Source of the DNA: a virus | DNA: 64,000 bases | Virus record (IMG/VR): IMGVR_UViG_3300021437_000011 | Span: 28,247 to 92,246 of that record | Reading direction: 5' to 3' (one strand) | Shown: positions 4,731-44,038 of the stretch, piece after piece | Numbering within the stretch: position 1 is the first letter of the stretch | How the letters are laid out: every line of letters begins with the position of its first letter | The notes under the pieces: generated by a model | What the model was told of the DNA's origin: nothing | Databases searched by the model: none | What the model saw: the letters and a program-made list of their open reading frames with translations, nothing else | Translations under genes and position numbers: made by a program

Positions 4731-7450
4731 TGGTCATGACCTGTGAAGAGATACTTGATGATTTTGATGTTTCGCGCAGGCTCGCGGCCTACTGGAAGTC
4801 TCAGATCCAGTCTGTCGACGAAGCCAATTCGCGCTGGCACAAGCGCGGCGACAAGATCATCAAGCGCTATAAAGACGAACGCGACCAAGCCGCAGAGGAA
4901 GGCAATCGCCGCCTCAACATGCTGTGGTCCAATGTGCAGATACTCCAGCCAGCCATCTATGGACGTCGGCCACAGCCCATCGCCGAACGCCGGTTTCTGG
5001 ACCCGGACCCGGTTGGCCGCCTGAGCGCCCAGATGATGGAGCGAGCCCTCAGAAATGAGATAGAAGAGAACGGCTACCACGCAGCGATGAAACGCTCCGT
5101 TCAGGATTACCTGCTCCCAGGGCGGGGCCAATGCTGGATTCGCTATGAGCCTGAGATCGGCCCTGGCTTGTCTCTGACGCCGTCCTCTCCTCTCGACATG
5201 CGCGACGCTCAAGGAGTGATCGCCGAGGACGAAGGCGAAGGCGAGGAAGATGAAAAAACCGAAAAGCTCGAAGAGACCGGAGAGCAGATCTTATCGGAAA
5301 GTTGCCCTGTAGATTATGTCCAGTGGAAAGACTTCTACATGTTTCCTGCCCGAGCCAGGACATGGTCTGAAGTAACAGCTATCGCAAAGAAGGTATATCT
5401 ATCAAAGACAGAGTGTATTGAAAGATTTGGAGAAAGTGTAGGCAAAGATATTAAGCCTGATGCTTCAATTTCTGTTGCTGAACGCCAAGAAAACCTTTCA
5501 ATTACTACATTGCATGACCAGAATGAGCGCAAGAGGATCGTTCATGAGATTTGGAACAAGGCTGATCGGCGTGTTTACTGGGTTTCTACTGGTTATGATT
5601 ACCTATGTGATCTTGTTGACGATCCTCTTGAATTAAGGGCGTTCTTTCCATGTCCTGAGCCATTAAGCGCAACTCTGACGAATGACAGTCTTATCCCTGT
5701 CCCTGACTACATCGAGTATCAGGATCAAGCGCTCCAAATTGATGAGCTTACACAACGCATCGCCTTGTTAACGAAGGCGTGCAAGGTCGCAGGCGTTTAT
5801 GACGCCGCGAATCGGCCCTTGAAGCGACTGCTCGATGAGAGCGTAGAGAATGAGCTGATCCCCGTTGATGACTGGGTGCGCTATGGGGATAAAGGCGGCG
5901 TCGCCGGCGCAATTTCCTTTTTGCCCTTAAAGGAGGTCATGGAGACGATCGATGTCCTGATGAGCGTAAAGGAGAAGATGCTCCAGGATCTTGACCGGGT
6001 GACGGGCATTTCTGACGTGCTACGCGGGACCACCGACGGCCGCGAGACTATGGGCGGAACGCGCCTTAAAACAAACAACGCAGGCACGCGCATTGATGAG
6101 CGGCGCAATGAAGTCGCCAGGTTCGCCCGCGACATCGTCCGGCTGATCGCCGAGGTCATCGGAAAACACTTTTCGGCGAAGAGCATTATTGAGATCTCCG
6201 GGGTTCTCTATGAAGAAGAGTTCTCTCCAATCCAGAAAATACAAGAGCTTATATCCGAAATGGCGTCACAGGGCGGCCCTGGAGACGGGATGGTGGGGGG
6301 GCAGCCCCCCCAGTCGGCATTGCCGCCTCCAGGGGGCGCTCCCATCGCGCCCCCTGCGCCGGGCGCCGCTCCGCCATCAAGCCTAATGATGGCCGGAGCG
6401 CTCACGGGGCCAGGGGCTCCGGCCGCTCCGCCCCAAGCGCCCCAGCAACCCGCTCCGCCGTCTCCGCTCGCCGCGATCATGGAGCTGCAGCACCCCATTG
6501 AGGCGTTGCTATCCAGGTTGGGAAAGGCTCTTTCCCTGCTCCGGAGAGACATTCCGCGCGGCTACCGCATCGACATCGAAATCGACTCCACGATCTCTGG
6601 AGACGCGCAGGAGGAGCGCGCCGACTCCGTGGAGTTCCTTGGTTCCGTCACCAAATTTATCGAGACCGCCGGCATGATCGGCGCGCAACAGCCGGCCATG
6701 ATCCCGCTTCTTGGGAAAATGCTCCAGTTCGGGGTTCGCAAGTTCCGCACGGGGCGCGACCTGGAGAGCGCCATCGATGATTTCTGCGATCAGGCTGAGA
6801 AAAAAGCTAAGGCGTTGGCCGCCAACCCACAGGCAAAAGGCCCTAGCCCTGAAGAGCTGAAAATGCAGGCCGACGTGGCAAGGCATCAGGCTGAAATCGC
6901 CAAGAGTCAGTTGGAGGCCCAAGCCGCCGCCGCGAACGACCAGCGCGATCGCGAGAGGATGGCGATGGAGCATCAGGCGCGACTCCAACAGATGAAGATG
7001 GAAATGGAGCAAAAGCGCGAGGAGCATCAGATGCGCCTTCAGGAGATTCAGGCCGCAAAGATCGCCAAGGAAATTGCTCATCATCAAGACATTCAGCGCG
7101 CGGCCGATCCCACATCGCAAAACATTGAGGTGATCAAAGCGCATTCGACGGCGGCCAAGGCGCAGGCAGAAATTGCCAAGGCGCAGCTCGAAGCGCAGAC
7201 GGCTGAGAAAACACATCATCTTGACCGCGAACGCGCTCAAGCCGAGCACGAGAACCGTCTCCAGGAAATGCAGATGGCGCGTGAGCTCAAGCTGGCGGAG
7301 CACCAGGCCAAGCTCACTCATTTGCACCATGAGAGGTTGAGCGCGCATGAAGATCACATGTTCAAGATCGATCACCTTGACCACCAGCGCGCGGTGTTGC
7401 GCGAGAAAGCCGCCGCCGACCGCCGAGCGGCTAAACAAACGGTGGCGTGA
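4730..7450 (+). CDS. phage portal protein with long coiled-coil C-terminus
   Basis: 906 aa; forms the dodecameric DNA channel at the capsid vertex. The N-terminal region with a charged helix and PAIYGRRPQP, and the central DRVTGISDVLRGTTDGRETMGG, resemble large podovirus-type portals. Position directly after TerL supports this. Residues about 495-560 are a Pro/Gly/Ala-rich linker. Residues about 680-906 are a long Gln/Glu/Lys/Ala coiled coil with two similar blocks (AEIAKSQLEAQ and AEIAKAQLEAQ), longer than in most portals and perhaps a barrel or internal extension. ATG 4730 overlaps the TerL stop; a second ATG lies at 4736. Confidence 0.87.
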   Translation: MVMTCEEILDDFDVSRRLAAYWKSQIQSVDEANSRWHKRGDKIIKRYKDERDQAAEEGNRRLNMLWSNVQILQPAIYGRRPQPIAERRFLDPDPVGRLSAQMMERALRNEIEENGYHAAMKRSVQDYLLPGRGQCWIRYEPEIGPGLSLTPSSPLDMRDAQGVIAEDEGEGEEDEKTEKLEETGEQILSESCPVDYVQWKDFYMFPARARTWSEVTAIAKKVYLSKTECIERFGESVGKDIKPDASISVAERQENLSITTLHDQNERKRIVHEIWNKADRRVYWVSTGYDYLCDLVDDPLELRAFFPCPEPLSATLTNDSLIPVPDYIEYQDQALQIDELTQRIALLTKACKVAGVYDAANRPLKRLLDESVENELIPVDDWVRYGDKGGVAGAISFLPLKEVMETIDVLMSVKEKMLQDLDRVTGISDVLRGTTDGRETMGGTRLKTNNAGTRIDERRNEVARFARDIVRLIAEVIGKHFSAKSIIEISGVLYEEEFSPIQKIQELISEMASQGGPGDGMVGGQPPQSALPPPGGAPIAPPAPGAAPPSSLMMAGALTGPGAPAAPPQAPQQPAPPSPLAAIMELQHPIEALLSRLGKALSLLRRDIPRGYRIDIEIDSTISGDAQEERADSVEFLGSVTKFIETAGMIGAQQPAMIPLLGKMLQFGVRKFRTGRDLESAIDDFCDQAEKKAKALAANPQAKGPSPEELKMQADVARHQAEIAKSQLEAQAAAANDQRDRERMAMEHQARLQQMKMEMEQKREEHQMRLQEIQAAKIAKEIAHHQDIQRAADPTSQNIEVIKAHSTAAKAQAEIAKAQLEAQTAEKTHHLDRERAQAEHENRLQEMQMARELKLAEHQAKLTHLHHERLSAHEDHMFKIDHLDHQRAVLREKAAADRRAAKQTVA

Positions 7451-8238
7451 TGCGGGTTGCTCTTTGGGCCGTCAACCTCGCGCCGGCCGTCCCAAGCTTG
7501 GCGGCGTGGCTCGAAATAGTCAGATCTCGCGTTGACGAAGCTGTACGGGTCGGCGCGGAAATTCTGATCATGCCCGAATATGCGTGCATGGCTTGGCTCG
7601 ACCACAAACCGCGCGACTGCGACGCGTCGCATGAAATCGCATGGATGGGCGAGCAGGCTCCCAAGGTCATGGGAGAAATCAAGGACATGGCGGCGGCTCG
7701 GCGCATCGCAGTTTTGCCTGGGACGTGGCCTGCTCCTGGCCGCCATGAGGGGTGGGTCAACCGGGCCTGTCTGATGCTTCCCGATGGCCGGAGCCTGATT
7801 CAGGACAAGCTCCATCCCATTCCGACGGAGCGTGATCACGATGGCTGGATGATTGAGCCTGGAGAGGACTTCAACGTTATCACTTGGCGAGGAGTTCGCA
7901 TCGCAATCATGATTTGCCATGACGTGCAATCAGTTGAGCTCGCGAAGCGCGCGGCGTTTATCGGAATAGACCTCGTGCTTGTCCCCACTATGACGGAGCA
8001 CGAGAAGGGACTAATGGGCCACAAGGCGATATTCGCGGCGGCAAAAACTCATGCTGAAAAATATAAAAGATCGGTATGCGCCGTTGGGGCTATTGGGACT
8101 CAGGTATTGCTTGATCGCCATGAACCCAATATTGGCGGAGCTGCTGTATACAAATGGAAAAGCGTTATCGCTAATATTGGCCCTTCATCAAATAGCGCTA
8201 ACACATTCGGGCCTATGATTATAGGGAATATTTCATGA
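7450..8238 (+). CDS. nitrilase-superfamily carbon-nitrogen hydrolase
   Basis: 262 aa, the usual length for this superfamily, which hydrolyses or transfers amides and nitriles through a Glu-Lys-Cys triad. The triad is visible: E43 (MPEY), K120 (QDKLHP) and C156 (IMICHD). The fold pattern (early GAEILIMPEY, later IDLVLVPT and GGAAVY) is complete, so the enzyme looks active. ATG 7450 overlaps the portal stop. Lying between portal and scaffold, it is translated with virion genes. The substrate cannot be read from sequence; amide chemistry on a small metabolite, a sugar or a virion protein is all possible. Confidence 0.85.
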   Translation: MRVALWAVNLAPAVPSLAAWLEIVRSRVDEAVRVGAEILIMPEYACMAWLDHKPRDCDASHEIAWMGEQAPKVMGEIKDMAAARRIAVLPGTWPAPGRHEGWVNRACLMLPDGRSLIQDKLHPIPTERDHDGWMIEPGEDFNVITWRGVRIAIMICHDVQSVELAKRAAFIGIDLVLVPTMTEHEKGLMGHKAIFAAAKTHAEKYKRSVCAVGAIGTQVLLDRHEPNIGGAAVYKWKSVIANIGPSSNSANTFGPMIIGNIS

Positions 8239-10537: not shown

Positions 10538-11569
10538 ATGGCCGTACCTGGCCTTTCAGAAATCGTGACAACCACGCTGCGAAACCGCACCGGGGTGTTG
10601 CAGGACAACGTCAGTAGGAATAATGCGTTACTGGCTCGTCTCAACAAAAAAGGTCGAGTGAAGACGTTTTCAGGCGGTAGAACTATTGTTCAAGAGCTTG
10701 ATTACGCCAACAATCAGACCTTCGTCTGGTATAGTGGGTATCAGACGCTAAACATTAACCCAAGCCAAGTATTCACGGCTGCTGAATTCCCGATTCGTCA
10801 AGCTGCTCTTGCTATCTCCATCTCTGGCCTTGAGGAGATACAGAACAGCGGCGAAGAGGCTATTATTGATCTGCTTGAATCCCGTATCGAGAACGGCGAA
10901 CGCACGTTCCTGAACGGGCTGAGCATGGGCATTTACGGAGACGGCTCGACCGCCAACTCAATTGGCGGGCTGCAGCTTCTTGTCGCAGCCTCTCCAGCGA
11001 CGGGGACCGTCGGCGGCATTGACCGCTCCCAATGGCCATTTTTCCGTAATATCTCGTTCTCGGCGCTGACGAATGGCGGCGCGGCGGCGAGCGCGGCGAA
11101 TATCCTCTCGTACATGGATAGCTTGTGGGTGCAGTTGATTCGTGGTCGCGACGCCCCGGATCTGATCGTCGCCGACAACAATATGTACAAATACTACCTC
11201 CAGGCGCTTCAGTCTATTCAGCGCATCACAACTGAGGGCTCTGCTCCCGAGCTGGCCGAGGCTGGCTTCCAGACTCTAAAGTACATGTCTGCTGACGTGG
11301 TGTTGGATGGTGGATATCAGGGCCAAGCTACTGATCCACTCCCATATAAAATGTCCACAGACACCAGTGCAGTTGGCGGTTCTCCGGCTAACACCATGTA
11401 CTTCCTTAATACAAACTACCTGCACTATAGACCTTCTGCTCAGAGAAACATGGTTCCACTTGATCCAGATAGGTTTTCTGTGAACCAGGATGCTATGGTA
11501 AAGCTTATCGGCTGGGCAGGTAACATGACGCTAAGTAACGCGTTCCTGCAAGGTCTCATAACTACATAA
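10538..11569 (+). CDS. major capsid protein
   Basis: 343 aa; builds the icosahedral shell. The N-terminal TTLRNRTGVLQDNVSRNNAL, the central LESRIENGERTFLNGLSMGIYGDG and SIGGLQLLV are typical of HK97-fold coat proteins of podovirus-like phages. It directly follows the scaffold, with GGAACGGGAAAAG before the ATG. There is no sign of an N-terminal prohead-cleavage region, consistent with a separate scaffold. Likely the most expressed gene of the operon. Confidence 0.88.
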   Translation: MAVPGLSEIVTTTLRNRTGVLQDNVSRNNALLARLNKKGRVKTFSGGRTIVQELDYANNQTFVWYSGYQTLNINPSQVFTAAEFPIRQAALAISISGLEEIQNSGEEAIIDLLESRIENGERTFLNGLSMGIYGDGSTANSIGGLQLLVAASPATGTVGGIDRSQWPFFRNISFSALTNGGAAASAANILSYMDSLWVQLIRGRDAPDLIVADNNMYKYYLQALQSIQRITTEGSAPELAEAGFQTLKYMSADVVLDGGYQGQATDPLPYKMSTDTSAVGGSPANTMYFLNTNYLHYRPSAQRNMVPLDPDRFSVNQDAMVKLIGWAGNMTLSNAFLQGLITT

Positions 11570-11619
11570 TACTACTCGGTGTGTATTATGTACAATACTT
11601 TGGTGCAAAGGAAAATACT

Positions 11620-12171
11620 ATGTCCGTCCGTACGAGATGGTACACCGAGGACAACAAACTCGGTGTAGACCTTAACAATACAGAGGCGGCGATCGCGGTT
11701 ACAACGTATCCCGAGTTCCCCGCCAACAGGATCGCCCTGGGCGAGCAGGTTCAGGGCGTTGGCGGATCGCGGTGGATGTATGTCGTCGCGTCGGCCACCG
11801 TGAGCGCGAACAACCTTATTGCGATCAGTCCGGCTGGCGCGACGGAGTTTCATGCGGAGAGCCTTACATCCGCGCATGTCGCCTCCGGAATCTACTCGTT
11901 CGGGATTTCCCAGATGTCAGTCGCGGCGGCGGCTACGGGGGAGGCGTTCTGGGCGCTTCTGGAGGCCCGCTCGGGGGCTGCGATCAACTGCGTGTCCTCG
12001 TGCGTCGCTGGCGCTCAGCTCTATCTGTATCCGGGGCAAGCCGGGAAGATCACCACAACGGCTACCGGGTATTTCATTCTGGGACTTTATGCAGTCAGCC
12101 CGATGACGGTGACAACTGCTACGGTTGACGTTGTCGTCTTGAGAGAAATCTACGTTACGGCATCAGCATAA
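11620..12171 (+). CDS. probable capsid decoration or stabilising protein
   Basis: 183 aa from ATG 11620, preceded by AAAGGA. The sequence is rich in Ala, Val, Thr and Ser with alternating hydrophobicity and ends in a long beta-like stretch (TTATGYFILGLYAVSP). Small beta-rich proteins directly behind the coat gene often bind the outer capsid surface. No named family recognised. A surface protein here would be a reasonable acceptor for the modification suggested by the two DUF115 genes that follow, but that is inference. Confidence 0.6.
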   Translation: MSVRTRWYTEDNKLGVDLNNTEAAIAVTTYPEFPANRIALGEQVQGVGGSRWMYVVASATVSANNLIAISPAGATEFHAESLTSAHVASGIYSFGISQMSVAAAATGEAFWALLEARSGAAINCVSSCVAGAQLYLYPGQAGKITTTATGYFILGLYAVSPMTVTTATVDVVVLREIYVTASA

Positions 12172-32630: not shown

Positions 32631-33244
32631 GGCTGCTTCTCCAGAAGATGCCAAGTCACGTTATCGAGCCCAGTGGCGGGCTTCCACTCAAAGCCATAGG
32701 CGATGCATCTGAGGTCCGGGAATCGCTCCAGATAGAGCGAGCCGTAGTCGGCCTTCCATAGCGCGCCAGCGCGCCCTCGATATTCGACCGCCGTCACCTC
32801 CGGGCTGAAATATTCGATGGCGGCGATCCAGTGACTGGAAACCCGGTGAATCTCGTCCATGGCCGCCCCAAGCTTCGCAGGGGGGATATGAATCAGGACT
32901 CCTGAAGTGAAGACAAAATCATTCGAGGCGTCCTGAAGCGGAATTTGGCCAGCGCAGCCGCTCAGGACCTCCGCCCCGATATTGGTTTTCATGTACTCCC
33001 TAGCGCGCTGGTTGGGCTCGATGGCGGTCAACGCCACGGTGGGGCCAACCATATATCTGAGCGCTTTCAGGTTGGCTCCACATCCCGCGCCAATCTCAAC
33101 CGCCGATCTGATCTTTTCTTTCATCGCTCCAACGATTTTGAGAAGGAGTCGGCGGCGAGCCTCAATATTTTCGAACGAAGAGCAGTTCCTCTCGGTATAG
33201 TCATCGCCAAACTGACCTTCCCACAGCTTAAGATTATCATCCAT
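32627..33244 (-). CDS. pseudaminic acid biosynthesis-associated methylase
   Basis: 205 aa, SAM-dependent methyltransferase. The start LWEGQFGDDYTERN is the signature of the methylase family tied to pseudaminic acid clusters (TIGR03587). SAM motif I is VEIGAGCGANLKAL; IPLQDASNDFVFTSGVLIHI is the post-motif. Likely O- or N-methylates the nonulosonic acid or its precursor. Overlaps both neighbours in the operon. Confidence 0.85.
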   Translation of the reverse strand: MDDNLKLWEGQFGDDYTERNCSSFENIEARRRLLLKIVGAMKEKIRSAVEIGAGCGANLKALRYMVGPTVALTAIEPNQRAREYMKTNIGAEVLSGCAGQIPLQDASNDFVFTSGVLIHIPPAKLGAAMDEIHRVSSHWIAAIEYFSPEVTAVEYRGRAGALWKADYGSLYLERFPDLRCIAYGFEWKPATGLDNVTWHLLEKQP

Positions 33245-33875
33245 TCGACGACCTCAATATATCTTCAAGTCTCTTTATGTCTTCGGGGAAGTCTACACAG
33301 TAGTTAATGTCGGAAACATTGACCTTAGCCGCCAGTGTCCCTATGTCAAGGCGTTTATTATTTTGCATCCAGGGAGTTACGTGCTCCCTATCGTACGGAT
33401 CAGATGCCTCTCCGCTTGCCGCCTCCAGGCAACCCATGGTAAAGCATTCGCAATCGAACCCTTTTGGAAATGTCCTGGTGGGATGCACGTTCGATGCGTA
33501 GTCAAGATCCTCTTTTTTAAGCATCTCAAGCACGAGTTCGCATAACGCAGGATCAATGAACGGACAGTCCGCTGTCAAGCGCATGATGATATCGGCTTTG
33601 ACATCCTTGGCCGCCTCTTGATAGCGGCCGAGGACGTCATCCTCATCTCCAGCGAAAGCAAGAACGCGCATCTCTCGGCATAGGTTCAGGATGGGCAAGG
33701 ACGCCTCATCCTCTGGGAACGCGCACACCACTTTATCAATCCCAGAAATAAGTTTGGCCCTCGTTAGGACATGCTCCAGAACAGGCTTCCCGTCGAGAAG
33801 CGCCATGGTTTTTCCTGGAAATCTTCTTGAAGTCATCCTCGCTTGTATAATGCACGCGCTTACAATTCCGGTCAT
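33237..33875 (-). CDS. SpsF-like cytidylyltransferase (CMP-nonulosonate synthase candidate)
   Basis: 212 aa. IIQARMTSRRFPGK is the nucleotide-binding loop of the SpsF/CMP-sugar synthetase family. GDEDDVLGRY and MRLTADCPFIDP are its metal and sugar motifs. In nonulosonate clusters this family activates the sugar with CMP for transfer. Overlaps the upstream gene by ATGA and the downstream gene by eight bases. Confidence 0.83.
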   Translation of the reverse strand: MTGIVSACIIQARMTSRRFPGKTMALLDGKPVLEHVLTRAKLISGIDKVVCAFPEDEASLPILNLCREMRVLAFAGDEDDVLGRYQEAAKDVKADIIMRLTADCPFIDPALCELVLEMLKKEDLDYASNVHPTRTFPKGFDCECFTMGCLEAASGEASDPYDREHVTPWMQNNKRLDIGTLAAKVNVSDINYCVDFPEDIKRLEDILRSSNG

Positions 33876-34618
33876 CCTGCCAGCCTTGTGTTAATCCCAT
33901 GGTCATGGAGATAGCGCCGCGCCCCCTGCGGCGTCATCTCGGCAAAAAGAAACCCCGCGCCAACGGCCACCGCGTCGGCGCCAACTTCGAACGCCTCAAG
34001 GAGATGAGCGTAATTCCCAGCGCCGCCAGCCGCGATAACGGGAACGCTGACGGCGGTCGAAACCTTTTGGATCAAATCACGATCAAATCCCGCCTCGCCG
34101 CCATCATGGGGAATGCTGGTTAAAATGATCTCTCCAACGCCATCTTCAACAGCGGCGCGCGCCATACATTCTGGACGTATATTATTGATTTTATTGCCAC
34201 ATTCCGTAATAACGCGATCATGGGCGACATCGATCGCGGCGACTATGGCCTGGGCGCCAAAGCGCTCAGACGCCGCGCGGATCAAAACACGATCAAATAA
34301 TGCGGAACCGAGCACAACCTTATCCGCGCCGGCGCGAAGGAGCTCGCGGATATGCTCCAACGTCGAAACCCCGCCTCCGATCGCTACGGGCATGAAGCAT
34401 TCAGCAGTGAACTCCCTCAGCTCGGCGAAGCGCGGCTCGCGGGCCTCTGGCGTCGCCGCGACATCGAGAATGACCAGCTCATCGATCTGACGCCGGTCAC
34501 ACACCCGGATAGCCTGCATAAGGGAGCCAACATGGCGCCGGTTGTGGAACTGCTTTCCCTTCACCAAGGATTTGCCATCCCACAAAAGCGTGGTGATAAC
34601 CCGCCTCTTGATCATCAC
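33872..34618 (-). CDS. HisF-like cyclase subunit of sugar amidination
   Basis: 248 aa TIM barrel resembling imidazole glycerol phosphate synthase HisF: N-terminal RVITTLLWDG, PVAIGGGVSTLEHI, then VIAAGGAGNY and AVAVGAGFLF. Beside an N-acetyl sugar amidotransferase it matches the HisF2 paralogues that help convert an acetamido to an acetamidino group on surface sugars. The usual glutaminase partner (HisH2) is not in this window. Overlaps the preceding gene by ATGA. Confidence 0.82.
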   Translation of the reverse strand: MMIKRRVITTLLWDGKSLVKGKQFHNRRHVGSLMQAIRVCDRRQIDELVILDVAATPEAREPRFAELREFTAECFMPVAIGGGVSTLEHIRELLRAGADKVVLGSALFDRVLIRAASERFGAQAIVAAIDVAHDRVITECGNKINNIRPECMARAAVEDGVGEIILTSIPHDGGEAGFDRDLIQKVSTAVSVPVIAAGGAGNYAHLLEAFEVGADAVAVGAGFLFAEMTPQGARRYLHDHGINTRLAG

Positions 34619-35736
34619 GCGACCTCAAAAAGCGGCGTAGGACGCGGCGCGCTCAGGGACAAACTGAAGATCTGCTTGTTCGTGAATCGATCGGCCACAT
34701 TCACAAAATCATTGAGATTCAGGCCGAGGGGGCCGACGATTTCATGGAGCGGCTTTCCCAAGTAGGTCCAAGGGAACGCCCCGTCACGCTCCCTGACCAA
34801 GGCGACGGCTTCACTGCGTGCGAGTCTCCCGCGGCGGATATGGTTGCAGGCTATGTCGGTGGCGCGGCCGTAACCGTATTTCACCCACCGTAGATAATCA
34901 CGGCCGCCAGTGCAATAATTATCAAGATTCTCATAACCATAAAGGCTGCCTTCGATGTGACCGTCAATGTATTCAAATCCGCTTTGCTCTGCTATAACAA
35001 AGTTCTCATACCCATCCCATGGGAAATATCTCCCAAGCCATACGGATTGTATGCCTTTTTCCGAAAGAATGTCGCTAGACGGGAACCTATACATAGCCAT
35101 GTCATCGCATGACAGCCCTAAAATTTCCTGAACATCATCAACGCGCAGACCCAAAAGCCCAGCAAATTCCTCAATATAGCGACGCGTCATGCGTGGCGTA
35201 TCTTCGGAGCCAGCGGGGCCTGCTCCGTATTCGTCCTGAGATAGCTCGCCAAAGACGATTGTTGGGATATTCCACTTCACGGCTGCCTGGAAGGGAATGG
35301 TGTGGATTAGCACATGCTCCGGCCACGACCAGTCGCCCACCTCAGTCAGAGCCAAGCGCATGATCCGATGGCGGACCTCATCATTGGGGTGAAATTCGAC
35401 GAGATCGCACATCCGGCCGATATTGTCCAGATTGCGTCGCCCGATTGGCGTCAACATGTCAGTCCGCGCGTTGACGGCGAGGACCCGGAAACCAAGATCC
35501 TTGCATTTCACAACCTGCGCCGTGCTATCCTTTCCGCCGCTGACGGGGACAATCACGAGGGGCTCCCCCTTATGCCGCCAGCTCAGCTCCACCGTCTTCG
35601 CGAATTCCACGGCCCTGGCGGCCCAGTCGACGGCTTGGCGGCGGTCATAATTCTGGCAGGCGGAACACAGGCCATCTTCATCAAAGCGAAGGTCTGGTTT
35701 CAGTTCGGGGTAAACGCAGCGTATGCAGTATCTCAT
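34615..35736 (-). CDS. N-acetyl sugar amidotransferase (WbpG/PseA-like)
   Basis: 373 aa. N-terminal zinc motif CIRCVYP with CSACQNY, then the PP-loop VPVSGGKDST that activates the substrate with ATP, and TIVFGELSQDEYG. This is the TIGR03573 type (WbpG, PseA) forming acetamidino groups on nonulosonic acids and other sugars. Full length. It works with the HisF-like product of the next gene; ammonia would need an unseen glutaminase. Confidence 0.86.
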   Translation of the reverse strand: MRYCIRCVYPELKPDLRFDEDGLCSACQNYDRRQAVDWAARAVEFAKTVELSWRHKGEPLVIVPVSGGKDSTAQVVKCKDLGFRVLAVNARTDMLTPIGRRNLDNIGRMCDLVEFHPNDEVRHRIMRLALTEVGDWSWPEHVLIHTIPFQAAVKWNIPTIVFGELSQDEYGAGPAGSEDTPRMTRRYIEEFAGLLGLRVDDVQEILGLSCDDMAMYRFPSSDILSEKGIQSVWLGRYFPWDGYENFVIAEQSGFEYIDGHIEGSLYGYENLDNYCTGGRDYLRWVKYGYGRATDIACNHIRRGRLARSEAVALVRERDGAFPWTYLGKPLHEIVGPLGLNLNDFVNVADRFTNKQIFSLSLSAPRPTPLFEVA

Positions 35737-35748
35737 AAAATTTACCCC

Positions 35749-36762
35749 TTATTCGAACATTCCCTCTGACAATGCTGTTCCCTTATCGAGGTCTCTTCTA
35801 GATTTTTTTCCCAGAACTCCAGAATATTTGCTAGGGTCCAACCCATATCCTGGACGTATTACTTTAACATTGTCACACGTGAAACATTCTCCTTTTTTTA
35901 TGTCTTCGACGACGTAGATTGACCTTTTCATTTGCATGCTGGTTTCTTCGCTTCTTGGAGCCTCGCATTGCATGGCGGCCCATGCCATTTCGACGGAGCT
36001 GACGAAGTCGCGGAAGCGCTCCGGGCGGCAGGCAAAGTCCTCGTCAGCGCTCCCGCGCTCTCCAATGTGCTTTTCAATGACGCGCACCCCGCACGCAACG
36101 GCGGCGATCGCCGTGATGTTGTTGATGGTATGGTCGCTGAAACCAATCTCATGGCGAGAAAAGCGGCTCTGCAGATTCCTGATAGACCACAGATTGGCCT
36201 CCCGAACTGGTGTGGGGTAGCCCGACACACAGTGCAGAATGACGACGTCGCGCCCATAGAGGGCGTCCAGAGCCGCATTGATGTCATAGAGGCTTGCCAT
36301 GCCCGTGGAGATAATGACGGGCTTCTGCGTCTCGCGAACGCGCTCCAAAAGCTGAAAATGGTTGATCTCGGCCGATGCGATTTTATAGGCGGGGCAGTCG
36401 ATTTCCTCTAGAAAATCAACATCCTCAACCGAGAACGGGCTGGAGAAAATCGGAACGCCCAAGCCTTCCGCAGCATCAAAAAGCGGCCTGTGCCACTCGC
36501 GAGGCGTCATCGCCTCGCTGTACAGGTCATAGAGGTTCCGCCCTTTCCAGGCGCCGCCCTTGATCTCGAAGTCCGGGCCATTGCACTTGATCGTCAGGCT
36601 ATCGGGAGTGTAGGTCTGGATCTTGATCGCCCCAGCGCCGGCGCGCGCTGCGTCAACGACAAGCTCTTGGGCCTGCTCCAGGTCGCCACAGTGACCGCTT
36701 CCGATCTCCGCAATGGTAAGGGGCGGGCGGTTGAGCCCGAAGTCGTACCCAAGGATATTCAT
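35749..36762 (-). CDS. pseI: pseudaminic acid synthase-like NeuB-family enzyme
   Basis: 337 aa. Condenses a 6-deoxy-hexosamine with phosphoenolpyruvate to make the nine-carbon acid. NeuB barrel motifs: IAEIGSGHCGD, AIKIQTYTPDSLT, FSSPFSVEDVDFLEEIDCPAYKIAS (in parts), VIEKHIG; the SAF domain follows (RSIYVVEDIKKGE, IRPGYGLDP). NLYDLYSEAMTP is typical of the PseI branch over sialic or legionaminic synthases. Complete, so likely active. Confidence 0.88.
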   Translation of the reverse strand: MNILGYDFGLNRPPLTIAEIGSGHCGDLEQAQELVVDAARAGAGAIKIQTYTPDSLTIKCNGPDFEIKGGAWKGRNLYDLYSEAMTPREWHRPLFDAAEGLGVPIFSSPFSVEDVDFLEEIDCPAYKIASAEINHFQLLERVRETQKPVIISTGMASLYDINAALDALYGRDVVILHCVSGYPTPVREANLWSIRNLQSRFSRHEIGFSDHTINNITAIAAVACGVRVIEKHIGERGSADEDFACRPERFRDFVSSVEMAWAAMQCEAPRSEETSMQMKRSIYVVEDIKKGECFTCDNVKVIRPGYGLDPSKYSGVLGKKSRRDLDKGTALSEGMFE

Positions 36763-37373
36763 TTGAAGATCTCCAACATCGACAAATCTGGATATTGATC
36801 GTTATGCAGATCAGGATTGCATCGAGGCAGGGAATGGAGCTTCAACAGCCCCTGGGCAGATGTTGATGGATTCATATAGCAATGCCATCCCAGCATAGGA
36901 AAAGCGTCGTTTTTCGGGGCTACGCCCTCAGTCCGGCCATCAAATCGCGCGCGGCGGAACCAAGCGTCAGCCTCGGGATCATCATGAAGGATAGCGCCGC
37001 CCTGCTCTAGCCCCAGGATCTTGGAAGCGTGGAAAGAGACGCAAACATACTTGTAGTCCTCCTCGCGCCCCGTGGTTGCGAACATCCTCCACGTAAAGCG
37101 CCTAGCAGCATCGTAAATTCTGTGCGGCCACAGCCGGTAAGCGCCCCTCCATGGTCTATCCTCAAATTTAACCGTTCCTCCAGCATGGATAATGCTCATG
37201 GGGACACTGACATATGTACGTTTTGGGATAATAACTTCGCCTACGCATTTATATTTACAGCATAAGAATAGAGCCATTGTGCACGAATTCACAGCAACGG
37301 CGTAAGGAGCGCCAGTATATTCGCATAGCGCTTCTTCGAAATCTTTCGTTACCTGATGTGGGTTGCGCGTCAT
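36759..37373 (-). CDS. short DegT/DnrJ-type aminotransferase (PseC-like)
   Basis: 204 aa from ATG 37373; an upstream in-frame start would overlap pseB. PLP sites: AVAVNSCTMALF (cofactor loop), IYDAARRF (Asp) and SFHASKILGLEQGGAI (Lys). The family is usually about 380 aa, so the C-terminal domain is missing. The gene overlaps pseI by four bases and follows pseB by one base, with no frameshift debris, so this compact form seems intended. Expected role: 4-amination of the keto sugar from PseB. Confidence 0.75.
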   Translation of the reverse strand: MTRNPHQVTKDFEEALCEYTGAPYAVAVNSCTMALFLCCKYKCVGEVIIPKRTYVSVPMSIIHAGGTVKFEDRPWRGAYRLWPHRIYDAARRFTWRMFATTGREEDYKYVCVSFHASKILGLEQGGAILHDDPEADAWFRRARFDGRTEGVAPKNDAFPMLGWHCYMNPSTSAQGLLKLHSLPRCNPDLHNDQYPDLSMLEIFK

Positions 37374-37374
37374 C

Positions 37375-38334
37375 TTAAACGGACCCAAGCAGCATCTTCA
37401 GGTCATCCGTCGACAGCCACTTATCATTGCGCTCCGAACTCAGCGAGAAACCCTCTTCCATGGGCTCGCTGGGCAAGAGCCAAGGCGGGCAGACGACGAA
37501 GGCGTATTCGTTCTGCGTCGCCGTCCGCCCCTCGTGGACAGTGATAATATCCTCGTGGAGCTTTTCTCCTGGTCGAACGCCAATGATTTCGCACGGGTAA
37601 TCATCCTGGCCATAGATTGCGGCGGCCAGATCCGAGATGCGAAAGCTGGGCATCCGCGGGATGAAGACCTCGCCGCCTTGCATTACGCCCAGACCATTCA
37701 GGACAAACTCCACGGCGTCTTGAATTGTAATCCAAAAGCGGGTCATGTCGAGGTGAGTGACGGGCAACGGCCTGCCCAGGGCGGACAGGAAGCGCCACCG
37801 GGGGATAACGGACCCGCGCGAGCCCGAAACGTTGCCGTAGCGAACGACCGAAAAGGCGGGGCCTCCCGCGCTGGTGAGATTGTTGGCGGCGACAAACAGC
37901 TTCTCGGCTGAGAGTTTCGTGGCTCCGTAAAGATTCGCTGGAGAAACAGCCTTATCCGTGGACAGAGCTATGACTTTAGCTACGCCGCAGGCCAGGGCGG
38001 CGCTTATGACATTGGACGCGCCTCCAATGTTGGTTTTAATCGCTTCAATGGGGTCTTTTTCGCATGCTGGGACGATCTTCATCGCCGCGGCGTGGATCAC
38101 GACGTCCACGCCCTTGAACGCCATTTTGAGACGATTCTCATCACGAACATCGCCAATATAAAACCGGAGCCGATCATCGGCGAGGGACTCCGGCCGCGCC
38201 AACGCCATAGCCTCTTGCTTCTGTTCGTCGCGCGAATAGATGGCGATTTTGGCGATGTTCCGGTCAAGGAGCAGCCTATCCACGATCGCTTGGCCAAAAG
38301 TGCCGGTTCCGCCAGTAATGAGAACGCTGTTCAT
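37375..38334 (-). CDS. pseB: UDP-GlcNAc 4,6-dehydratase (PseB-like)
   Basis: 319 aa from ATG 38334, preceded by GGAGG and overlapping the previous stop (ATGA). First step of pseudaminic-type sugar synthesis. Rossmann motif LITGGTGTFGQA; FYIGDVRDENRL; HAAAMKIVPACEKDP; YGATKLSAEKLF with the catalytic Tyr/Lys pair; STDKAV. The HAAAMK...CE pattern matches the inverting dehydratase PseB/FlaA1. Complete. Confidence 0.9.
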   Translation of the reverse strand: MNSVLITGGTGTFGQAIVDRLLLDRNIAKIAIYSRDEQKQEAMALARPESLADDRLRFYIGDVRDENRLKMAFKGVDVVIHAAAMKIVPACEKDPIEAIKTNIGGASNVISAALACGVAKVIALSTDKAVSPANLYGATKLSAEKLFVAANNLTSAGGPAFSVVRYGNVSGSRGSVIPRWRFLSALGRPLPVTHLDMTRFWITIQDAVEFVLNGLGVMQGGEVFIPRMPSFRISDLAAAIYGQDDYPCEIIGVRPGEKLHEDIITVHEGRTATQNEYAFVVCPPWLLPSEPMEEGFSLSSERNDKWLSTDDLKMLLGSV

Positions 38335-38723
38335 GCGCCAGCCTCCTTTTGCTCGGGAATCCCGACCATCCACGCCGGGGGGAGGACAAAATCATAATGG
38401 AGGGGGCGCCAGAGATGGAGGCAGTTGACGTGGTTGTTGATATGGTCGGATTCGGCGACATGGAATTGAACCGCTACCTCATGGGGCAGGAAAAACGCCC
38501 TTTTGATGAATTCCATTTCGATCCAATTGGGAACCCGGTTCTTGCGGCTCACGGACACATGGTCCCAACCTTCTCCAGAAGAAGCGATGACGCACATAAA
38601 CGCTTTATCAATGGGCGACATGAGGAAGAATCGCCCGCAGGAATCATCCCCATATCCGCCGTATATTGCAATGACATCACGAGACCTGTCCCTAAATTGG
38701 TTCAGGTCATTCAAGTTCCGCAT
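38331..38723 (-). CDS. conserved phage protein heading the nonulosonate operon
   Basis: 130 aa from ATG 38723 (GGAG upstream). Has GWDHVSVSR, MEFIKRAFF, HINNHVNCLHLWRP and PPAWMVG, a small phage family I would place with DUF7694, function unknown. Similar proteins are widespread in phages without sugar operons, so it may not take part in sugar synthesis. Its stop overlaps the pseB start. Confidence 0.7.
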   Translation of the reverse strand: MRNLNDLNQFRDRSRDVIAIYGGYGDDSCGRFFLMSPIDKAFMCVIASSGEGWDHVSVSRKNRVPNWIEMEFIKRAFFLPHEVAVQFHVAESDHINNHVNCLHLWRPLHYDFVLPPAWMVGIPEQKEAGA

Positions 38724-39209: not shown

Positions 39210-39216
39210 AAAATAA

Positions 39217-39259
39217 CCCGAGCCGCTGAGCCATCACCAGCGGCTCGGGTTGCATTTTT
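39217..39259 (+). terminator. rho-independent terminator after the His-rich gene
   Basis: A perfect 12-bp stem (CCCGAGCCGCTG at 39217-39228 and its complement at 39238-39249) with a 9-base loop, then TTGCATTTTT. Insulates the CRISPR region from the gene on its left. Confidence 0.9.
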
Positions 39260-39618
39260 CATGGGAGCGTTGATTCGTGCCGGAATATGCCTGGGCAAGT
39301 CGTCTCGTACGCAAATGGTCCCATCAGTTCACTTCGTGCATACGCATAAGGTAGACGTATCCGACGTGCGCTTCATGCAGTAAATATCCCGTGCGATCTT
39401 GCTTGTGTTGGCCCATGTCGAGATGGACGTGCTTCGTGCAGCGGGCGTCACTTAAGCGTACTAGCCGTCTTTGCAAATCGAGCTTAAGCGCTGGGAATCA
39501 ATTGGATCGCTCGTGCTTTTTCACGGCGCGCCTCTTCGTGCAAGCATGAGAGCCAGCGAAGGCGCGTGCATCCCAGCCCGCATTGAAGTTGCTGGCCTAG
39601 CCGGATCGAACATGTAGT
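39260..39618. other. non-coding stretch with decayed repeat-like motifs
   Basis: No credible gene in 359 bp. CGTGC, the first bases of the CRISPR repeat, recurs at about 39276, 39335, 39390, 39428, 39512 and 39565, with the last three steps near 53-54 bp before the first recognisable repeat at 39619. This fits worn-out repeats at the old (trailer) end of the array; chance cannot be excluded. Confidence 0.4.
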
Positions 39619-40133
39619 CGTGGATCGTGCTCGCGTGGAAGATATAGGCTATTCGCTAATACCCCTGTAATTATTACTCGTGCCTCCGTGCTCGCGTGGA
39701 GGATACCGATCTATGACAATCACATTTGATCACCTCCGCCGTGCATCCGCGTTCGCGTGGGGGATACACGATATTCGATTTGTAGGCGAAGCCCCACGCC
39801 CGTGCATCCGCGTTCGCGTGGGGGATGCTATAAACTTTGTTGCGGTATGCCATAGGATTCCCGTGCATCCGCGCTCGCGTGGAGGATACTATTAATTTTC
39901 TTGCAGCGATGTTATACCCTGCCGTGCATCCGCGCTCGCGTGGAGGATACGGGATCACCCATTGATCCGGGCCGTTATTCGCCCGTGCATCCGCGCTCGC
40001 GTGGAGGATACACCTCCGCATCCCATTTCGGGCCAGATCGGGCCCGTGCATCCGCGCTCGCGTGGAGGATACTAAAGCTCGATGGCGTCGGCGACGGTGA
40101 GGGCCCGTGCATCCGCGCTCGCGTGGAGGATAC
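39619..40133 (-). CRISPR. phage CRISPR array, type I-E-like repeats, 9 repeats and 8 spacers
   Basis: Repeats start at 39619 (degenerate, 27 bp), 39679, 39740, 39801, 39862, 39923, 39984, 40045 and 40106, each 28 bp. The period is exactly 61 bp from the second on; spacers are 33 bp. Counting the C before most repeats gives 29 + 32 bp, the type I-E dimensions. On the + strand the repeat reads CGTGCATCCGCGCTCG then CGTGGAGGATAC; CCGCG and CGTGG form a 5-bp stem with a 4-base loop. It matches the E. coli I-E repeat at about 20 of 29 positions. The last five copies are identical and the first ones worn, so the leader should lie to the right with transcription leftward. No cas1, cas2 or Cascade genes are in the window. 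Confidence 0.95.
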
Positions 40134-40409
40134 CCTTCCGCGTAAGCGTATGATCCATATATCAAAGAGCACGGATAGCTTCGCCCACCACCACAGGAAC
40201 GCTTTATTCCCCCGTCTTCGTGCGCCGACTCGTAGACCGCGAATACACACGTTCCGCCGCCAAGCTACACTCTAGTGCCGTTGCCTTGCTGTCGGCTCAC
40301 TCCCCCGAGGGTTTGTGCTGCGCACCCGCTTGGCCTTACACGGCAGCCCCCTGAAACCTCAGCTTCAGAGGGCGGGCAGTTACTTTCCCCCGCACGCGAG
40401 GGTAGGGGA
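40134..40409 (-). ncRNA. candidate leader and structured RNA between effector-like gene and array
   Basis: Region from the end of the TnpB-like gene to the array, on the inferred transcript strand. It holds a hairpin at 40347-40372 (CCCCCTGAA and TTCAGAGGG arms with one mismatch), GC-rich pairing at 40387-40407, and a repeat-like CGTGC...GAATAC near 40219-40245. TnpB guide RNAs lie exactly here, at the 3' end of the gene, and CRISPR leaders lie next to the newest repeat. Either or both may apply; the boundaries are not determined. Confidence 0.45.
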
Positions 40410-41831
40410 TCAATCCCAAGCTCGTTTGAGCTGGCTAGCCGCCTTGGCGATCTGGCCTTGCTCATATTCATTTTGCGCGGCGTTGGCTTGCCGCGAAACG
40501 TAATTACCGCAATCGCATATTAGCATGCGCTTTTCAAGAGGCATGTAATGGAGTTTCCCACACCGCGAGCATTTTTGCACCTCGGGAAAGAGCGTATGCG
40601 TTTCGTTGTACGTGCGACCGCGGTCGACAGCCTTGTATCCAAGGTAGCCCCGGAACTGCGCCATGGCGGCGCGCTTGTTCGCTTTTGTCAGGATTTTAGG
40701 AACTCTTTCAACATCTCCCGTCTGTTTGTTAACCCTTTTTGTCGTCATGAGCGATTTAACATCCATCTTATGCACAGTTATCGTGTCGAACTGCTTAACG
40801 ATCGCGTCAGAGACCTTATGCAGCATATCGTCGCGTCGATTGCGCTCCTTGGCGTGGAGATTCGCCAATTCGTCGGCTGTCTTGTAATAATCCTTCGTCC
40901 CCTTATGGCGGCGCGCCAAACGTCGGTTAGCGAGCCTGATGCGCCGCGCCAGCTTCCTGTCCTCTTTCATCGGCGGCGTTTGCTGGATTTTTTCCCCGTC
41001 GAATGTGGTCGCCAGAATGCTGGCGGAGATCTTGACGCCGCATTCGCGCCCGAAGTGTGGATAGGGTTTGGGGTCAGGGACTTCGAATTGACAAGACAGC
41101 CACCACTGCTCTCCCAGACGCCAGATGCGCCCTCCCTGCAGCTTGCCGTCAATAGGGACGCCCTCTTGCCTGAAGGTGATAGCTTGTTTCAGCTTCGGCA
41201 GCTTCACCTCTCGGGCTTTGTGGTCAAATATTGTTTGAGTGTTGACCATATAGACGCTCCCTACGGCATAGCGCGACTTTTTGAAGCGGGGGAACCCTGT
41301 GTCTCTTCCTCCAGCCCCGTCTTTGCGCTTCTTCCGCTCAAGGAGCATGGTTTTTATGGCTTTGACGACATCCTTACAGACCTGCTGAGAGGAGTGTGAG
41401 GGAAGCGCCTCAATCCATTTCATGGTCGGATTCTCCTTGAGACGAGCCATGATCTTCTGAAGATCGCTTTCCCAAATAAAAAGTTTGGGAGGCTCTCCAT
41501 CCACAGAGGAACCGGAAATTTTTTGGTAATGGTCTTGCGGCGGCTCTACAGGCTCCTTCCCTTCTCCAGGTTTTTTCTTAACAATTCCATACTTTGTTTT
41601 CTTGCCATATTTCCAGGAATGGAGAGCATCCGCATATCCCTCCTTAACGACTTGCGCCCAAATCTCGCGCCAGCGTAATTCTGGGCGGAATTTTGATCCG
41701 TCGTAGGCCGCCTGCTCCATCCCAAGCAGCAAATTCCACAGGTTTATGCCTCCTCGACGCCACCGATCCATGGTCCTCGCCTGCTCGGGCGTCGGCTTCA
41801 GCTTTATCTTAACCCCACGCATTACCGCCAT
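40410..41831 (-). CDS. nuclease-dead TnpB/Cas12-like RNA-guided protein
   Basis: 473 aa. Order matches TnpB and small Cas12 proteins: N-terminal HTH region (KIKLKPTPEQARTMDRW), GFPRFKKSRY (179-188), RuvC core, bridge-like Arg/Lys helix (about 292-335) and a zinc ribbon C421, C424, C439, C441. RuvC I is CGVKISASILATTFDG with K267 where Asp is expected (GxD). RuvC II is ITVHKMDV with H354 for Glu. RuvC III is SRQANAAQNE with Q448 for Asp. All three catalytic acids are lost while flanking residues are kept, as in TldR-type repressors. It lies just upstream of the CRISPR array on the array's inferred strand. Probable role: RNA-guided DNA binding without cutting. Confidence 0.9.
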   Translation of the reverse strand: MAVMRGVKIKLKPTPEQARTMDRWRRGGINLWNLLLGMEQAAYDGSKFRPELRWREIWAQVVKEGYADALHSWKYGKKTKYGIVKKKPGEGKEPVEPPQDHYQKISGSSVDGEPPKLFIWESDLQKIMARLKENPTMKWIEALPSHSSQQVCKDVVKAIKTMLLERKKRKDGAGGRDTGFPRFKKSRYAVGSVYMVNTQTIFDHKAREVKLPKLKQAITFRQEGVPIDGKLQGGRIWRLGEQWWLSCQFEVPDPKPYPHFGRECGVKISASILATTFDGEKIQQTPPMKEDRKLARRIRLANRRLARRHKGTKDYYKTADELANLHAKERNRRDDMLHKVSDAIVKQFDTITVHKMDVKSLMTTKRVNKQTGDVERVPKILTKANKRAAMAQFRGYLGYKAVDRGRTYNETHTLFPEVQKCSRCGKLHYMPLEKRMLICDCGNYVSRQANAAQNEYEQGQIAKAASQLKRAWD

Positions 41832-41925: not shown

Positions 41926-42156
41926 ATGCGCTGCGCATACACGGTGGTTATAGAGTGCGGAGAAATAACATGTAATGAAAGAGAAAAATCATGCGTTTTC
42001 TTAGCGATAAGGCGAACAGGCTCAGAGGCTGTCTGCTTATTTCCTCACGGCGGACCCCTTAATGGCAAGAGGGTCACTCCCCTGCGGACAAGAGAGGGGT
42101 GGGTCATCAGATCCGAGGACTGCAAAGACGCTTTCAAGGTTGTCGATAGCGAGTAG
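41926..42156 (+). CDS. small Cys-containing hypothetical protein
   Basis: 76 aa from ATG 41926, chosen because GTGGAGGAG sits five bases upstream; upstream in-frame ATGs lack a ribosome site. Five Cys, no signal peptide. VVIECGEITCNEREKSCVFLAI and GEAVC-like spacing suggest a compact, perhaps metal-binding, domain. Divergent from the TnpB-like gene. Not recognised. Confidence 0.55.
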   Translation: MRCAYTVVIECGEITCNEREKSCVFLAIRRTGSEAVCLFPHGGPLNGKRVTPLRTREGWVIRSEDCKDAFKVVDSE

Positions 42157-42205
42157 CGCATTAAGAAATAACCATATTCCAGGCAAAATATGCATAGGTA
42201 TCAAG

Positions 42206-44038
42206 ATGAGTGCGAATGCAAGTTACAAGAATAAGGTAGAAATTCCGCGCATAAAACCAAAAAAAAACCAGAAAGAACCGCAATTTATTTTCACTGATAA
42301 CGCAGGCAATAAAAGACGCGTTAACTATGTACTAAAAAATGACTCATATTTTTTCAGAGCTTGTGATGTTTGGTCTGCATGCACTTTATATGAAAAAGGA
42401 TTTTTAATTTCACATCTTAAATCAGTCGGCGACGTAGAGAAGATTCTCTTTGATAAAAATTCATGGTGTCCGTCCACGCGACCAACATATGCAATAACCC
42501 TTCAGCAAGCCCTCAAAGCGTGCAACGAACTGCCAGGGGGGCCTCATGGCGTTGAAACGTGGCTCAGGGACAACTTCCTCTCTCCAGAGGCAAGGAATCA
42601 AAGCCCCCTCCTCGTCATTGCCGCAGCGGACCCCATCCCAATCGCTCCCCCCGAGACGCCCGCCGCCGCGCTAATCACTTCCGCCAATGGCGAGATATCC
42701 TATGTGTTGCGCTGCAGGCAGGATGCGCCGCGCCAAGCGTGGCGGTTGCCAGCCGTAAAGCATGGCGAGACGGTCTTTTGGCCAGAACGCCTAGGCGTTG
42801 ATATCAATGACATCAACGAGATATTAGGCGTTGATGTCGTCGATTCCGTGCAGAACCGCTTATGGGCGCATCGGGACGTCCAGGATCAGACGCATCGCCT
42901 GATCGACAGCCCCTGCTGGGATAAAATGAAGGCGCTCCCCGCGATCCGCAACGCTAACCCTGACCTAGTCGCGGCGTATAGCGCGCTCTTCGCGTTGAGC
43001 GTGGGGGGAAATGGAGCGCAAGAGACCGTTAATGGAGAATCTGAAGCCAAGCAAGGAGTCTCCCAGCAAAAGAAAGCGGACGCAGGCGATCAGCCAGCGA
43101 TAGTCGCTTGGCCCCTTGCGAGCAAATCTCTCGCCCCTCCTGCGGAAGCCCCTCTCTCCCCCATGCAGTCGCGTTCCTTTGACTTCTCCACAGCTACCCA
43201 TCATGTAACGCATGTTTATGCGGCTATGGACGACGAAGGGCGGCTCTGGGTGTCAAGACCGTCCTTGAATAACGTTTTTGGGGTCGTACAGGGATGGCCG
43301 CTCGCTGCAAGGAACGCTCCAAGAAGACAGATCCTTTGCGAAGGAGAAAGCGTGGCGGCCATCTGCGAGACTAACATTCCCCTGCTGGTCGGAGGCCAGG
43401 AGGGGAAGAACAAGATTTTGGGACTGGATTTTGAGCATTGGCTGGCGGCGGAGGTTTCTCCAGCATTCATCGACTCAGCCCCTCCGTCAGCCATTATGAA
43501 GATAGAGGGCAAGGAGGCTTCTTTCTTTTTTCAAGGGTTCAGTTACCTGATCCGCGTAGCTAAAGATGAGGAAGAAGATCTCTGGGTGGCTATCTCCGAT
43601 GTTGAGAGGCTACTCGACCATCCTCTCAAAAATTGGCAAGGAGGCGCCCGAACCTCTCCCCGGCGTCTGATATCCCTAAATGGGACGACATTTCCAGCCA
43701 TATCGGAAGAGTGGATCGAAAGTATCGCAGCGGGAGCGCCGCCCAGTCGGAAAAACAGATCGAAGGCTTTCGTTCAATGGTGGACCGATAGCGTATGGCC
43801 CATGTTTAGCGCCCAGCCTAGCGCCACGCCATCTCTCGCGCCAACGCTCGCGCCAACGCTCGCCAGCCAGGCGCGAGAGGCCGCGCGCCTGCTGGTCCTG
43901 TTGGCCGACGAATCCGATGCTCTGCGCGCAGAAAATGCTCAGTTGAAGGCTGAGAACGCGGATGTAAAGGAGATGAAGACGACGCTCGCGAAAAAAATCG
44001 CGAGCGTTCAGGAAGCGCTTGGAAAAATAATAGCCTAG
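42206..44038 (+). CDS. large protein with tandem Bro/KilA-like modules and coiled coil
   Basis: 610 aa from ATG 42206; the frame is open upstream but lacks a start with a ribosome site. Three or four similar segments seem to occur: YFFRACDVWSAC (about 50), VFWPERLGVDINDI (about 190), GRLWVSRPSLNNVFG (about 345) and EDLWVAISDVERLLDHP (about 455). Each has the aromatic-xx-D-V pattern of Bro-N or KilA-N antirepressor domains, but is diverged. The C-terminus is a coiled coil after a short LAPT repeat. A regulator or antirepressor is possible; confidence in the family is low. Confidence 0.55.
   Translation: MSANASYKNKVEIPRIKPKKNQKEPQFIFTDNAGNKRRVNYVLKNDSYFFRACDVWSACTLYEKGFLISHLKSVGDVEKILFDKNSWCPSTRPTYAITLQQALKACNELPGGPHGVETWLRDNFLSPEARNQSPLLVIAAADPIPIAPPETPAAALITSANGEISYVLRCRQDAPRQAWRLPAVKHGETVFWPERLGVDINDINEILGVDVVDSVQNRLWAHRDVQDQTHRLIDSPCWDKMKALPAIRNANPDLVAAYSALFALSVGGNGAQETVNGESEAKQGVSQQKKADAGDQPAIVAWPLASKSLAPPAEAPLSPMQSRSFDFSTATHHVTHVYAAMDDEGRLWVSRPSLNNVFGVVQGWPLAARNAPRRQILCEGESVAAICETNIPLLVGGQEGKNKILGLDFEHWLAAEVSPAFIDSAPPSAIMKIEGKEASFFFQGFSYLIRVAKDEEEDLWVAISDVERLLDHPLKNWQGGARTSPRRLISLNGTTFPAISEEWIESIAAGAPPSRKNRSKAFVQWWTDSVWPMFSAQPSATPSLAPTLAPTLASQAREAARLLVLLADESDALRAENAQLKAENADVKEMKTTLAKKIASVQEALGKIIA

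Follow-up and report, generated by a model that had tools for sequence, protein, structure and literature searches.

A phage protein of the TnpB/Cas12 kind, in which all three catalytic residues of the RuvC site are replaced, is the probable effector of a phage-borne type V system that would silence mainly competing phages by RNA-guided binding and that, in related loci, is joined to spacer acquisition of the type I-E kind. The window, the entire stretch of DNA analysed, is 64,000 nucleotides long and derives from a 92,246-nt IMG/VR phage contig; genes for a terminase, portal, major head protein and endolysin on this record bear out the phage-borne location claimed in a first-pass annotation. 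The effector gene and its key positions are as follows.

40410 to 41831, minus strand: RuvC-dead TnpB/Cas12-like effector of the PADLOC Cas12_x2 family, 473 aa (HMMs, AF2 model, PDB fold matches, tree)
41031 to 41033, minus strand: K267 codon at the RuvC-I Asp position; Lys in seven of seven family members (alignments)
40770 to 40772, minus strand: H354 codon at the RuvC-II Glu position; Gln or Pro in relatives (alignments)
40488 to 40490, minus strand: Q448 codon at the RuvC-III Asp position; Asn or Thr in relatives (alignments)
40509 to 40571, minus strand: zinc ribbon, C421, C424, C439 and C441, intact (invariant alignment columns)

The open reading frame is intact, running on the minus strand from an ATG at 41831 to a stop at 40410 (473 codons). 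Judged by HMM matches, the product is a member of the TnpB/Cas12 superfamily. It matches NCBIfam guided_TnpB (E=1e-42), Pfam OrfB_IS605 and Cas12f1-like_TNB, and the PADLOC profile Cas12_x2 (E=2e-109, 365 bits, split over two stretches). With Cas12_x2, ordinary viral TnpBs do not exceed about 50 bits, and the Cas12u1 (V-U1) profile gives the effector 33 bits as opposed to 365. The kinship with TnpB and small Cas12 and the open frame, both proposed at first pass, are upheld by these results. An AlphaFold (AF2) model, a check suggested at the same time, has a mean pLDDT of 85.7 and contains the expected RuvC elements; a PDB fold search with this model gives TnpB complexes as the best matches, then Cas12p, Cas12f and Cas12m. 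In the predicted structure K267 is placed in RuvC strand 263-268 and H354 in strand 350-355, with Q448 at the start of helix 447-472.

Aligned with ISDra2 TnpB (PDB codes 8bf8 and 8h1j) and four other TnpBs, the effector has K267, H354 and Q448 precisely in the columns of the catalytic Asp, Glu and Asp, and the neighbouring columns are unambiguous. The three replacements first read from the sequence therefore stand. In a control set of 80 viral TnpB-like matches, aligned automatically, two carry a substituted catalytic column (Asp to His in L055, Glu to Asn in L086), and a few further proteins lack one catalytic column through truncated or unaligned ends. At L086 5266-6324 and 6428-6600 (plus strand) a phage TnpB-like protein is encoded beside three CRISPR-like repeats; its Asn occupies the RuvC-II Glu position and it stops before the zinc ribbon.

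Piecewise scans of the effector identified the regions that hold the Cas12_x2 signal. A scan with residues 140-190 retrieved IMG/VR contigs L162, L163 and L164, and an alignment of these retrieved L167, L169 and L170. The six relatives share 37-46% identity with the window protein, and Cas12_x2 scores are 719 bits for L162, 498 for L163 and 701 for L164. Alignments that included generic TnpBs recovered generic TnpBs only, and scans of the viral_contigs and genome_contigs collections with the full window protein and its C-terminal part gave no matches. The Cas12_x2 profile gave no match at E<=1e-15 in approximately 1,000 sampled cellular genomes, a set that holds no positive control, the window record being recovered separately. 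At least L162 and L164 are phage contigs on the basis of hallmark genes, and L164 represents a temperate phage with an integrase.

The first catalytic position is occupied by Lys in all seven family members. At the second there is His in the window protein, Gln in L162, L164, L167 and L169, and Pro in L170; at the third Gln in the window protein, Asn in L162, L164 and L169, and Thr in L167 and L170. The L163 protein is truncated after the first site and can be read only there. Wherever the second and third sites of the relatives are readable, neither Asp nor Glu occurs. In a maximum-likelihood tree the seven dead proteins form one clade with support of 100/100. The sister protein, L171, retains Asp, Glu and Asp, and neither a CRISPR array nor cas1-cas2 was found at its locus. 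Values of dN/dS for close pairs are 0.114 (L163-L164) and 0.147 (L167-L170), by which measure these pairs of the clade are under purifying selection. The support for the dead clade, its sister with an intact triad and the dN/dS of close pairs together indicate that RuvC inactivation is old, shared and maintained. The earlier supposition of a triple catalytic loss under selection thus extends to a whole clade, with the dN/dS range of 0.11-0.15 applying to the close pairs. The window effector itself lacks a central insertion of about 40-60 aa present in its relatives and sits on a long branch relative to them. The L169 effector (5971-8103, plus strand) has 711 aa, with a large N-terminal insertion holding two similar cysteine-rich segments that are absent from the relatives.

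The locus is arranged on the minus strand in the order effector, RNA, array, tail and terminator. The last three are:

39617 to 40133, minus strand: CRISPR array, repeat GTATCCTCCACGCGAGCGCGGATGCACG(G), 28-29 nt, spacers 32-33 nt (repeat analysis)
39280 to 39616, minus strand: array tail with only the 3' pentamer of the repeat, GCACG (Markov comparison)
39215 to 39251, minus strand: intrinsic-terminator-like hairpin, 15 pairs and a T-rich tail, ending the predicted transcription unit (hairpin analysis)

The array, correctly noted at first pass as adjacent to the effector, is directly downstream of it and consists of eight clear repeats and a ninth, degenerate one, with a strict period of 61 nt. 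The repeats are identical at the effector-proximal end and worn at the distal end, and the array is therefore taken to be oriented along the strand of the effector gene. The repeat was sought elsewhere and no other occurrence was found. An ORF at 39674-40165 (minus strand) was rejected as a gene, being a translation of the array. Arrays of the five relatives, with few exceptions, combine 28-nt repeats with 33-nt spacers, and each has the same 61-nt period.

In the tail, GCACG occurs nine times in 417 nt, compared to a Markov expectation of 1.2 and a maximum of 6 over 2000 simulations. It is absent from the other strand; the copies are irregularly placed, 7-77 nt apart, and stop just short of the terminator. 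They could represent minimal repeats accompanied by short guides, or else the outcome of selective decay. No such tail was seen in the five relatives. A similar pattern is found at the unrelated phage TnpB-like locus L055 (5300-5830, plus strand), the protein with His aligned to the first catalytic Asp; here full repeats with a 66-nt period are followed by 19 copies of the repeat end GGCAC (1.8 expected), mostly 15-25 nt apart, that reach the start of the effector gene.

Several other genes in the window, and one element in a relative, merit description. Adjoining the CRISPR locus, at 33237-38373 (minus strand), is a sugar-biosynthesis cassette encoding NeuB, a DegT-type aminotransferase, Polysacc_synt_2, a cytidylyltransferase and a His_biosynth-family protein, which suggests nonulosonic acid synthesis by the phage. 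Upstream of the effector, on the opposite strand (42062-44038, plus strand), an ORF of 658 aa has no Pfam, PHROGs or NCBIfam match. The terminase large subunit (2079-4730, plus strand, 883 aa) has terminase profiles flanking a LAGLIDADG domain at residues ~274-324, an arrangement, as far as the profiles indicate, such as would be expected for an intein. In L164 a type II hammerhead ribozyme (11546-11623, plus strand, 58.6 bits, E=6e-10) is located about 2 kb beyond the CRISPR array.

Effector and array in the window are separated by about 276 nt of non-coding DNA, assigned as follows.

40134 to 40409, core 40207 to 40348, minus strand: tracrRNA-like structured RNA/leader, leader-end motif CTCTTTGA (six-locus alignment, covariance model)

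The gap before the array, which follows the effector in the window and cas2 in the relatives, is conserved in all six loci and holds an RNA of ~270 nt in the five relatives. With a covariance model trained without the window, 40207-40348 (minus strand) scores highest of all sites beyond the loci used for training (541 kb, E 0.02). Of the 72 pairs predicted by RNAalifold, 35 have both partners altered in one or more sequences, a proportion which with six sequences is indicative only. Near the array there is an anti-repeat zone, where pairing with the cognate repeat beats every other assignment (1/720 permutations), the cognate mean being -32.6 as opposed to -23.5 kcal/mol. In the five relatives this pairing is better than nearly all shuffles and the zone covaries with the repeat. 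In the window the anti-repeat pairs no better than shuffles, the folding energy of the 282-nt region is not below that of shuffles and the Rfam matches in the RNA region are all below threshold. Given the covariance match and the shuffle-level pairing, the window is considered to retain the RNA core, with no anti-repeat detected.

In five relatives (L162, L164, L167, L169 and L170) Cas1 and Cas2, the RNA and the array come after the effector in that order, and from the effector to the end of the array nothing else is encoded save one small ORF in L162. Curated models identify the pair in L162 and L164 as type I-E, with TIGR03638 for Cas1e (E=1e-88) and TIGR01873 for Cas2e, and the Cas1 and Cas2 of the other three contigs are homologous to these. 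A Cas1 profile search was positive in the five contigs and found nothing in the 92 kb of the window phage or in the truncated L163 contig; cas2 is likewise missing from the window. The motifs LRG-I/L-EG, GFVHE and D-V/I-ADLY carry what we take to be the usual catalytic Glu, His and Asp of Cas1. The nearest annotated Cas1e sequences, 59-65% identical, are on Sphingomonas, Azospirillum and Bosea plasmids and belong to alphaproteobacterial type I-E loci. Profiles for the Cascade proteins Cas7e and Cas6e matched in none of the seven contigs, which leaves the dead type V protein as the only effector found, and searches of the 92 kb with the Cas1, Cas7e and Cas6e profiles revealed no other cas gene. 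The 61-nt period common to the window and its relatives suggests that the window array was built by a similar Cas1-Cas2 pair, either its own or that of a host.

Does the window copy still yield usable guides? The absence of cas1, the degenerate array tail and the shuffle-level anti-repeat mean that it could be partly decayed. A stronger version, in which the family is functional and this copy a remnant no longer able to supply guides, would also account for the missing cas2, the degenerate distal repeats and the long branch. We consider this unlikely, since the 473-codon frame is intact, several identical repeats adjoin the leader, the RNA core is in place and a terminator directly follows the array tail.

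One spacer informs on what the guides might be directed against.

39768 to 39799, minus strand: spacer 6, 29/32 match to a phage DNA methyltransferase gene (spacer comparison)

The target gene belongs to Mesorhizobium phage vB_MloP_Lo5R7ANS. Comparison over 2.4 Mb, arrays excluded, with the full-length spacers of the window and of five relatives gave no second match at seven or fewer mismatches. With a single protospacer no PAM can be derived, the flank offering none that is usable, and there is little in the way of target statistics. No phage match was obtained with the L162 and L164 arrays and only weak ones, at chance level, with the L167 and L169 arrays; scans of IMG/VR with parts of spacers 1 and 6 gave nothing. 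In the phage's own 92 kb no window spacer has fewer than 11 mismatches out of 32. Seed matches of 16 nt to the same genome occur for 4 of 19 guides at two mismatches, compared to 0 of 60 in a small null, and end at the seed. Of the targets envisaged at first pass, rival phages thus gain support from the spacer 6 match, as a putative target of programmable binding or silencing, and the host and the phage itself gain none here.

These observations bear on the idea that the effector is a regulator in the manner of TldR, whose guides would turn down host genes or the phage's own, in lysogeny control or host remodelling, rather than those of rivals. Dead TnpB-like proteins of temperate phages do act in this way (PMC13418256), the L164 phage is temperate with an integrase, and a huge-phage Cas14 that lacks a catalytic residue has been proposed as the repressor of a host gene (PMC7162821). 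However, the own genome has no spacer match below 11/32 mismatches, the sole target identified is another phage, and the relatives, having Cas1e-Cas2e and long arrays in which the spacers are distinct, fit changing targets better than a single fixed one. Such regulation is, in our judgement, decidedly unlikely to be the main role.

We find it harder still to credit that the dead effector marks its target for destruction by a separate nuclease of host or phage origin, such as a host Cas3, which it recruits. Linkage of a Cas12m with a Cas3 is on record (PMC10910872), and the closest Cas1e sequences come from alphaproteobacterial type I-E loci, hence a host system of that type could be present; but from the effector to the array end of the five loci there is no conserved nuclease gene, and Cas7e and Cas6e are absent. 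Least credible of all is an anti-CRISPR decoy that sequesters crRNAs or Cas1-Cas2 of the host, a role proposed for a dead Cas9 that is encoded by a phage and has a tracrRNA of its own (PMC10910872, PMC11656645), for although the repeats are G+C-rich and of I-E size, that Cas9 has no CRISPR array, whereas this family possesses a tracrRNA-like RNA fitted to its own repeats and its own Cas1e-Cas2e, and one spacer targets a phage.

Silencing by binding alone remains the most economical reading, by likeness to Cas12m and TldR. The array would yield guide RNAs on its 61-nt period and, in the family, the tracrRNA-like RNA encoded just upstream would serve as scaffold. The effector ribonucleoprotein would then bind matching DNA, chiefly in competing phages, blocking expression or replication without cleavage. 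In the relatives the phage-encoded type I-E Cas1 and Cas2 would add spacers; in the window phage they may have been lost or never present, leaving an array that is fixed or serviced by the host. The sequences show the dead site across the family, purifying selection, the layout of the locus, the adaptation genes, the conserved RNA, an anti-repeat that covaries in five relatives and one phage protospacer; binding to RNA and to DNA, silencing, the uptake of spacers in vivo and the identity of the hosts we infer.

How does this arrangement compare with known systems? Nuclease-dead type V effectors are already known, among them Cas12m, Cas12c, Cas12k and TldR. The present family has also been seen before, since a PADLOC profile exists: Cas12_x2 (PDLC01226, filed under type V-F) covers both the window protein and its relatives, the window sharing with them the adjoining array of 61-nt period and lacking their cas1/cas2. 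In the searchable literature there is no description of a dead site in Cas12_x2, of its Cas1e-Cas2e, tracrRNA-like RNA or phage location, or of the combined architecture. A classification published in 2025 counts roughly 50 cases in which TnpB is associated with an array or an adaptation module, and names V-C, V-M, V-O, V-P and Cas12b3 as dead type V groups, V-O and V-P being predicted as such (PMC12669027); the lineage may already be listed there. In comparison of the family profile with PDB sequences, Cas12p (25 bits) and Cas12m (UnCas12m4a, 22 bits) are both weak matches and Cas12o is absent among the matches listed.

Cas12m (type V-M; GoCas12m, MmCas12m2) is a small, non-cutting Cas12 effector whose RNA-guided binding silences phages and plasmids and so protects against them (PMC11013384, PMC10442227), as is predicted for the window effector against phages. 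Cas12m is distinguished by a single crRNA, a REC2 insertion and H-D-D, N-D-D or D-E-D triads, and the window effector falls outside that family, with 33 bits for Cas12u1 as opposed to 365 for Cas12_x2. V-U systems are typically without acquisition genes (PMC11013384).

TldRs are RuvC-dead derivatives of TnpB, phage-borne and RNA-guided, that repress by binding and are coupled to genes of non-transposon origin, fliC for example (PMC13418256). The TnpB-like protein with an inactivated RuvC site is common to both, but TldR guides are of the TnpB type and involve no CRISPR array, whereas the window effector has an array and a tracrRNA-like RNA, with cas1-cas2 in its relatives. No neighbour related to a target in the fliC manner adjoins the window effector, with sugar-biosynthesis genes downstream and the 658-aa ORF without family upstream. 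The parallel with TldR suggested at first pass is, as an origin, not supported; the protein belongs to a separate, CRISPR-associated Cas12_x2 family with arrays, the tracrRNA-like RNA and, in five members, Cas1e-Cas2e. With type I-E the family has in common Cas1e, Cas2e and array units of 28+33 nt, and differs in that Cas7e and Cas6e are absent from the seven contigs. Tn7-like transposition genes, a feature of V-K/CAST, are not among the annotated neighbours of the window effector.

Phage-borne type V systems with a TnpB-like effector beside an array include V-U2 of cyanophage CL131 and CasPhi (PMC6293099), and some effectors of landfill phages lack RuvC motifs (PMC12607003). Surveys found CRISPR-bearing phages to be almost all without spacer-acquisition genes (PMC7162821, PMC12607003). 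Five contigs here differ from other phage type V systems in possessing such genes, the landfill effectors being compared by description only. Opinion is evenly balanced as to whether the family constitutes a distinct phage CRISPR lineage, in which type I-E acquisition is combined with a wholly RuvC-dead, TnpB-derived effector for the adaptive, reprogrammable and non-cleaving shutdown of competitors. A whole phage clade with a dead effector, most members of which keep Cas1-Cas2 from another CRISPR type, suggests that silencing which adapts but does not cut is a stable strategy among competing phages. It makes immunity by acquisition plus binding directly testable and offers compact, natural, predicted DNA binders with a separate guide scaffold.
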